Positions 49,104 to 52,259 of a DNA stretch of 64,000 nucleotides are shown here, piece after piece (position 1 is the first letter of the stretch; the number at the start of each line of letters is the position of its first letter). The position numbers were made by a program, and so were the translations under genes. The notes beneath the pieces were generated by a model. That model worked only from the letters and a program-made list of their open reading frames with translations, was not told the DNA's origin and ran no database searches. This stretch comes from Calditrichota bacterium (GTDB lineage Bacteria > Calditrichota > Calditrichia > Calditrichales > Calditrichaceae): positions 1-64,000 of the forward strand of contig JAJRSO010000063.1 in assembly GCA_024278755.1 (NCBI GenBank), given 5' to 3'.

Positions 49104-52100
49104 TTATATTTTAGCCAAACCGATTAAAAAGGTCTGCTTTTCTATTTTTGTTTCTTTTTTAAACGCGGTGGTAATTTCGCCAAACCGAATCTCATCGGCA
49201 AGTGTTTCGTTACAAATATACGTTTTTTGCCGCTTCAATGCATCCGTTTCTTTTTTTTCCATATCCTTAACCTGAATCAGGATATGATCGGTCACCTCAA
49301 AGCCCGCCTCTTTGCGTAAATTCTGAACGCGGTTTACAAATTCCCGGGCAAATCCTTCCTCCAGTAAGGCCTCGCTTAATTGCGTATTTAGCGCAACGGT
49401 AATGGAACGATCCGACTGAGCGCTGTACCCTTCTTTGGCGTGCGCTGTAATTTCGATATCCTCCGGCTCCAGGCGGAATTCATGGCCGTCAATTAAAATA
49501 TGCTCGTAGCCGTTTTCTCGGAAAGACTTAATTTGCGCCGCGTCAAAATTCTTCACCGCCGCAGCAATACGACCCATCAGTTTTCCGGCCTTTGCGCCCA
49601 GAACCCGAAAATTAGGTTTGGCCGAAAGGGTAACGATTTTCATGGAATCCGCTTCCAGCGCCACTTTTTTTACATTTAATTCATCGCTGATAATTTGCGC
49701 CATTTCCCGCACATATTTCCGGTCCTGTTCGTTTTCCGAGACAAAGATCAGTTCGGCCAACGGCTGGCGTACTTTAATCTGCGCTTCATTGCGCAGGGCG
49801 CGGGCGATGGTCACCACCTGCTGAGCCAGGTGCATTTTTTCTTCCAGCTGCAAATCGATGCGCGTCTTCTGTTTTTCCGTTACGGAAGGATAGGCTGCGA
49901 GATGAATACTCTGCTCTTCTGCTCCGCCGGTCAGGTTCAGATAAAGTTCGTCGGCAAGAAAAGGCGCATAGGGCGCAATCAGTTTATTCACCGTCACCAG
50001 CACTTCGTGTAGGGTTTGGTAGGCGGCTCGTTTATCATCCGAATCACCCGATTTCCAAAAACGGCGACGGTTACGGCGTACGTACCAGTTGGAAACGTCG
50101 TCGATTAAATAATCGGAAATGATACGCGCCGCGCGGGTTAAATCAAATTTTTCAAAGAAGTCTTCCGTCTGCTGTACTACCGTGTACAAGCGGGATAAAA
50201 CCCAGCGGTCAATTTCGGGGCGGTTTTCAAACGGAACCGGCTGTTCCGAGGGATCAAAGCTATCGATATTGGCGTATAACGCGAAGAACGAATAGGTGTT
50301 TAGCAGCGTATTCATGAATTTACGCTGTACTTCCATCACTCCGTCCGGATCAAACTTTTTCGGTGTCCAGGGCGAGGAGACGCTCATCAAATACCAGCGG
50401 ATGGTATCGGCCCCAAAGCGGGCGATCATCTCCTGCGGATCGACGGCATTGCCTCTGGATTTACTCATCTTCTGCCCGTTTTTATCCAGAATCAGCTCGT
50501 TTACCACGATATTTTTATAGGCCGGTTCATCAAAGAGCAGCGTAGAAATGGCCAGCAACGAATAAAACCAGCCGCGGGTCTGATCGATTCCTTCGCAGAT
50601 AAAATCGGCCGGGAAGCGTTTTTCAAATTTTTCTTTATTTTCGAACGGGTAATGCCACTGGGCGATGGGCATACTGCCGGAATCAAACCAGCAGTCGATA
50701 ACTTCCGGTACGCGCTTCATGTGTCCGCCGCATTCGCTGCATTTCAGGGTAATATCATCCACGTATGGCCGGTGCAAATCGACTTTTTCCATATCATCGG
50801 CCGATAAATTCTCCGCCCGATCAAATAATTCGACAACAGAACCGATAGCGTCCTGCCGGCGGCAGGATTCGCAGGTCCAGATATTGAGCGGCGTTCCCCA
50901 GTAACGGTCACGGGAAAGGCTCCAATCCACGTTATTTTTCAGCCATTCGCCAAAACGTCCTTCGCCCACCTCTTTTGGGTACCAGTTGATTTGGGCATTG
51001 TTATTCAGCATAGCCTCTTTAAATTTGGACGTTTCAATATACCAGGACTCGCGAGCATAATACAGCAGCGGCGACTGGCAGCGCCAGCAGTGCGGATAAC
51101 TATGCTCGATGGTTTTCTTTTTAACCAGAATACCCCGCGCCCGCAAATCGGCAATGATTTTTTCATCCGCCTTTTTTACGAACATCCCGGCGTAATCGGT
51201 AATTTCTTCTGTAAACGAACCGGTGGCGTCTACGGGACGCATCACCGGAAGGCCGTATTTGCGTCCCAACTGATTATCGTCTTCGCCAAAAGCCGGCGCG
51301 ATATGCACGATTCCGGTACCGTCTTCGGTGGTAACAAAATCGCCTTCGGTTACATAAAACGCATCTTTGTCCACGTCTACGAAATCAAAGATGCGTTTGT
51401 ATCGTTTACCGGCCAGTTCGGAACCCTTAAATATTTTTTCGACGGAATAGCTGCCCTCTTCAAACAGATCGCCGATGCGCGCCGTGGCGATAATGTATTT
51501 TTTTCCGTTTTCATCGTTCACTTGTGAATATTCCACATCCGAGCCGACGGCTAGCGCCACGTTGGAAATCAGCGTCCAGGGAGTTGTGGTCCAGACCAGA
51601 AAATAGGTATCCGCTTCATCCTGCAATTCCATGGTGACATAAATGGACGGATCTTTCACCTCTTTGTAGCCCTGGGAAACTTCATGGCTGGAAAGCGGCG
51701 TTTCGCAACGCGGACAGTAGGGGAGAATTTTAAATCCCTGGTAAATAAGCTTTTTATCCCACAGCTGTTTTAAAATCCACCAGACCGATTCGATATAATC
51801 GTTTTCGTAGGTGATATAGGGATCTTCCAAATCCAGCCAGTAGCCGATGCGTTCGGTCAGCGCATCCCAATCGGATTTATAATTGAACACACTATGGCGG
51901 CACATGGCATTGAATTCGCTGATGCCGTATTCTTCTATCTGCTCTTTTCCGTTGATTTTAAGCTGCTTTTCCACTTCAATTTCGACGGGTAGTCCGTGAG
52001 TATCCCAGCCCGCTTTGCGATGCACATAGTGGCCGGTCATGGTTTTATGACGGCAGACCACATCCTTTACCGTACGGGCCATCACATGGTGAATGCCCGG

Positions 52101-52259
52101 CTTACCGTTTGCGGTGGGCGGGCCTTCGAAGAATACGAAGTTTTTACCGTCTTGAGTTTTCTCCAAGGTTTTCTTAAATATATTTTCTGTCTGCCAACGT
52201 TGCAGGACTTTTTCTTCCATCTCGGGGAGTTTAAAATTTTTGGGGATTTCCGGAAACAT
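49104..52259 (-). CDS. ileS: Isoleucyl-tRNA synthetase, type 2, with GIHH instead of HIGH
   Basis: A 1051-residue class I aminoacyl-tRNA synthetase charging tRNA-Ile. The sequence GPPTANGKPGIHHVMAR identifies the type-2 (archaeal/eukaryote-like) form; the KMSKS signature is intact near residue 597 (KMSKSRGN), and the editing domain is present. The first signature, normally HxGH, reads GIHH at residues 55-58, so the first and third positions are exchanged. I recall that this GxHH variant of type-2 IleRS has been linked to very high mupirocin resistance. The C-terminal region has no zinc-binding CxxC pair of type 1. It heads the ileS-traR-lspA-rluD operon. Confidence 0.97.
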   Translation of the reverse strand: MFPEIPKNFKLPEMEEKVLQRWQTENIFKKTLEKTQDGKNFVFFEGPPTANGKPGIHHVMARTVKDVVCRHKTMTGHYVHRKAGWDTHGLPVEIEVEKQLKINGKEQIEEYGISEFNAMCRHSVFNYKSDWDALTERIGYWLDLEDPYITYENDYIESVWWILKQLWDKKLIYQGFKILPYCPRCETPLSSHEVSQGYKEVKDPSIYVTMELQDEADTYFLVWTTTPWTLISNVALAVGSDVEYSQVNDENGKKYIIATARIGDLFEEGSYSVEKIFKGSELAGKRYKRIFDFVDVDKDAFYVTEGDFVTTEDGTGIVHIAPAFGEDDNQLGRKYGLPVMRPVDATGSFTEEITDYAGMFVKKADEKIIADLRARGILVKKKTIEHSYPHCWRCQSPLLYYARESWYIETSKFKEAMLNNNAQINWYPKEVGEGRFGEWLKNNVDWSLSRDRYWGTPLNIWTCESCRRQDAIGSVVELFDRAENLSADDMEKVDLHRPYVDDITLKCSECGGHMKRVPEVIDCWFDSGSMPIAQWHYPFENKEKFEKRFPADFICEGIDQTRGWFYSLLAISTLLFDEPAYKNIVVNELILDKNGQKMSKSRGNAVDPQEMIARFGADTIRWYLMSVSSPWTPKKFDPDGVMEVQRKFMNTLLNTYSFFALYANIDSFDPSEQPVPFENRPEIDRWVLSRLYTVVQQTEDFFEKFDLTRAARIISDYLIDDVSNWYVRRNRRRFWKSGDSDDKRAAYQTLHEVLVTVNKLIAPYAPFLADELYLNLTGGAEEQSIHLAAYPSVTEKQKTRIDLQLEEKMHLAQQVVTIARALRNEAQIKVRQPLAELIFVSENEQDRKYVREMAQIISDELNVKKVALEADSMKIVTLSAKPNFRVLGAKAGKLMGRIAAAVKNFDAAQIKSFRENGYEHILIDGHEFRLEPEDIEITAHAKEGYSAQSDRSITVALNTQLSEALLEEGFAREFVNRVQNLRKEAGFEVTDHILIQVKDMEKKETDALKRQKTYICNETLADEIRFGEITTAFKKETKIEKQTFLIGLAKI

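Follow-up and report, generated by a model that had tools for sequence, protein, structure and literature searches.

The single housekeeping isoleucyl-tRNA synthetase of the Calditrichota bacterium studied here belongs, with high confidence, to type 2 (IleRS2) and naturally carries the class I signature motif in its exchanged form, GXHH; such an enzyme would stay active but would need very high mupirocin concentrations before it bound the drug. The gene lies in the window, i.e., the whole stretch of 64,000 nucleotides that was analyzed. The motif, GIHH, is real and had been read correctly in the preliminary description, but exchanges of this kind have already been published and explained (Brkic et al. 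2023, PMC10485003). The features concerned are as follows.

49104..52259, minus strand: ileS2, full-length type 2 isoleucyl-tRNA synthetase, 1051 aa (by TIGR00392 and the best PDB relatives)
52086..52097, minus strand: GIHH signature motif, residues 55–58 (aligned without gaps to HVGH in 8c8v and 1ile and to GVHH in 8c8w)
50457..50471, minus strand: canonical KMSKS motif, residues 597–601 (by residue numbering and sequence)

Identity of the Enzyme

The open reading frame 49104–52259 begins with ATG at position 52259. Its product scores 1022.3 bits with the curated HMM TIGR00392 (ileS; cut-off 621.4) and is thus an isoleucyl-tRNA synthetase. The best PDB relatives found by phmmer are 8c8w, 8c8v, 8c8u, 8c9d and 1ile. 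Solved IleRS2 structures (8c8w, 1070 bits over residues 12–1010; 1ile, 916 bits) are much closer to the protein than those of IleRS1 (8c9f, 429 bits; 1ffy, 422 bits), and on sequence grounds it is a type 2 enzyme. The possibility that it represents one of the acquired mupirocin-resistance synthetases, MupA or MupB, which it resembles, was considered and rejected, since its scores with the corresponding models (NF000257, 991 bits; NF000258, 958 bits) fall far under the NCBIfam exception cut-off of 1900.

Signature Motif and Active-Site Neighbours

Codons 55–58 (52097–52086) encode Gly-Ile-His-His inside GPPTANGKPGIHH; the context is also given as GPPTANGKPGIHHVMART. In the phmmer alignments GIHH falls without a gap on HVGH of P. 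megaterium IleRS2 (8c8v) and of T. thermophilus IleRS2 (1ile), and 8c8w has GVHH at the same place. With glycine in the first position, histidines in the third and fourth, and an intact KMSKS, the protein is a non-canonical IleRS2 of the GXHH kind. The coordinates and residue numbers of the motif in a full-length type 2 enzyme, its alignment with the HXGH of solved type 2 enzymes and the integrity of KMSKS all agree with what the preliminary description had reported or proposed to check.

The Pro-Pro-Thr-Ala-Asn segment upstream of the motif, Trp131 (equivalent to Trp130 of P. megaterium IleRS2, PmIleRS2) and KMSK are conserved throughout the alignment used for the tree below. Leu589 of the window protein stands where PmIleRS2 has His582, as it does in T. 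thermophilus and in most GXHH rows. His582 lies near the drug and is reoriented beside mupirocin (Brkic et al. 2023, PMC10485003), so the exact Ki of the window enzyme may differ.

A second-shell signature accompanying GXHH was also sought, and position 117 alone separates the two groups well. It is Asn in 71 of the 74 GXHH rows and Ile in 29 of 30 HXGH rows (T. thermophilus left out); Asn also stands in T. thermophilus and in a single further HXGH row. Because of these exceptions, and because the tree contains only two changes of motif state, ancestry and function are inseparable at this position, and the Asn/Ile split may reflect ancestry alone.

GXHH Enzymes and Mupirocin

Natural G/AXHH motifs occur in about half of the sampled IleRS2 (86 G/AXHH and 77 HXGH enzymes in the published tree), and no swapped IleRS1 was found (PMC10485003). 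With the swap the Ki for mupirocin increases 10^2- to 10^3-fold, and amino-acid activation, as measured by ATP/PPi exchange, is retained. D. radiodurans IleRS2, with wild-type ALHH, has a Ki of 6600 µM, which falls to 8.1 µM when the motif is swapped back to HVGH. Conversely, the change from HVGH to GVHH raises the Ki from 0.20 to 35 µM in T. thermophilus IleRS2 and from 1.08 to 460 µM in P. megaterium IleRS2. Loss of activation reaches about tenfold in the engineered swaps, and none is claimed for the natural D. radiodurans enzyme (PMC10485003). The preliminary description had tied this exchange to hyper-resistance with activity kept, which matches these data, including a Ki in the mM range. 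A full-text literature search found no other papers pairing the term GXHH with isoleucyl-tRNA synthetase.

The structural explanation offered in PMC10485003 is that the tip of the motif is displaced in IleRS2; the third histidine fits beside the adenine, and its nitrogen replaces that of the first histidine. Binding of mupirocin makes the motif move back, whereupon the third histidine would clash with it. By homology with the characterized enzymes, the third-position histidine of the window protein would assume the catalytic role of the first, since a shifted helix tip of the type 2 form would leave room for it beside the adenine. Binding of mupirocin would then force the motif back and bring the same histidine into a clash with the drug. 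The enzyme would thus remain active, and very high concentrations of mupirocin would be needed for binding. Hyper-resistance of the window enzyme to mupirocin is, by this homology, very likely; for the organism we infer mupirocin tolerance.

Among known systems, the closest in kind are the G/AXHH-type IleRS2 of S. griseus and D. radiodurans (ALHH), which are likewise type 2 enzymes with motif positions one and three swapped, an intact KMSKS and a possible role as sole housekeeping copy. The window enzyme differs from them in coming from another phylum and in carrying GIHH rather than the assayed ALHH. The natural enzyme assayed in the paper has ALHH; data on natural GXHH rest on S. griseus, which is cited there (PMC10485003). 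By sequence, the best structural relative is P. megaterium IleRS2 with GVHH (8c8w), which has GXHH in the same place; it matches the engineered mutant of the paper, with an approximately tenfold kcat cost, whereas GIHH in the window protein is natural. The natural HVGH form (8c8v) is 51% identical to the window protein over the aligned sequence. T. thermophilus IleRS2 (1ile), also of type 2 and about 50% identical, is canonical, with a mupirocin Ki of 0.20 µM, and its HVGH is read in PMC10485003 as a reversion from GXHH.

Distribution and Ancestry of the Motif

A degenerate DNA pattern for TANGxPGxHH, together with a backwards control, was run on all 40 genomes available for the phylum Calditrichota. 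The pattern gave a single match in each of 37 genomes, and the control matched in none of the 40. The three genomes lacking a match are G012 (76% complete), G022 (92% complete) and G035 (62% complete). In G012 and G022 the profile search shows no ileS at all, so the absence of the pattern there is probably due to assembly gaps. Since the motif extends across the phylum and type 2 enzymes often have it, GIHH is not peculiar to the source organism.

Two IleRS2 subfamilies, both with GIHH, occur in the phylum (loci L116–L141): one of about 1050 aa, to which the window protein belongs (10 genomes), and one of about 1095 aa (16 genomes), which has a long stem branch and several small insertions. 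They are about 54% identical, approximately the distance of the window protein from Ignavibacteria, and both are present within the family of the window genome. Transfer that replaced the resident gene, or an ancient duplication followed by losses, could possibly account for them.

For the tree (FastTree), eighty relatives were taken from named genomes along with the full-length enzymes of the phylum; those with a readable full-length frame were kept, and PmIleRS2 and TtIleRS2 were added, giving 105 rows. The tree is drawn from its midpoint and gives the number of changes in motif state, not their direction. GXHH is found in 74 rows and HXGH in 31, proportions which are not frequencies in nature, because the sample was picked by likeness to the window protein. 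Only two changes of motif state are needed on this tree, with or without the motif columns. The window enzyme groups with its own phylum inside a clade of 60 sequences, the 59 others of which all have GXHH; the clade comprises Calditrichota-like sequences, Ignavibacteria, Rhodothermia/Balneolaceae, Gemmatimonadota, Cloacimonadota and some Clostridia. The motif probably goes back to an ancestor that predates the phylum.

The second motif position, described as hydrophobic in PMC10485003, is small and polar in two records, GSHH in Thermoleophilia (L054) and GTHH in Anaerolineae (L023). Canonical variants also occur (L047, L053, L057): HPGH in a record labelled Thermoplasmata and in Riflebacteria, and HAGH in Clostridiales GWE2_32_10. 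Since the record labelled Thermoplasmata falls among bacterial enzymes, it may reflect transfer or a binning error.

Why the motif is present at all is a separate matter. GIHH could be an alternative, neutral or structural in nature, that became fixed in an ancestral type 2 enzyme, with resistance an unselected by-product in this lineage; this reading is a serious one, though somewhat short of an even chance, and it is compatible with the same biochemistry. It fits the occurrence of the motif in nearly all genomes of the phylum and in 60/60 sequences of the wider clade, as well as the natural D. radiodurans enzyme, for which no loss of catalysis is reported (PMC10485003). The sequence data here do not distinguish selection from neutrality, however, and the authors of PMC10485003 favour environmental antibiotics as the selecting agent for the swap.

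Copy Number

Some bacteria have a type 2 IleRS as an additional copy that confers resistance (PMC10485003), and the window protein could by analogy be a degenerate or accessory paralogue, e.g., a resistance spare, with a canonical IleRS serving translation. This is very improbable. A profile search of the genome (3.94 Mb, 79 contigs, 95.8% complete) found one ileS and no second IleRS, the remaining PF00133 and TIGR00392 matches being much weaker class Ia relatives; a spare copy beside a canonical enzyme was rejected on this ground. The enzyme is also the IleRS seen in nearly all relatives, and its open reading frame is intact and stands among housekeeping genes, as read from the ORFs (lspA, an rluD-like pseudouridine synthase and purine nucleoside phosphorylase).

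A chance origin of the motif, or an error of sequencing or assembly in its codons, is excluded for all practical purposes by the pattern matches across the phylum against an empty backwards control and by the same residues being written in different synonymous codons in relatives, as in G009 of the same genus (91–92% protein identity; GGGATTCATCAC vs. GGCATTCACCAT).

GIHH is, therefore, a feature that a housekeeping enzyme inherited long ago and not a recent resistance mutation: the enzyme is the only IleRS found, the motif recurs in 37 of the 40 genomes of the phylum and in every other member of the clade, and the tree requires just two changes.

Implications

A published resistance-associated active-site variant is now extended to a whole phylum, where it is seemingly fixed, which suggests natural insensitivity to mupirocin there. 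If GXHH IleRS2 is the only IleRS across the phylum and the surrounding clade, its origin may predate pressure by any specific drug, which would make hyper-resistance an exaptation and not an adaptation, a suggestion put forward tentatively. These bacteria also provide more natural GXHH enzymes with which to ask whether the swap costs catalysis.
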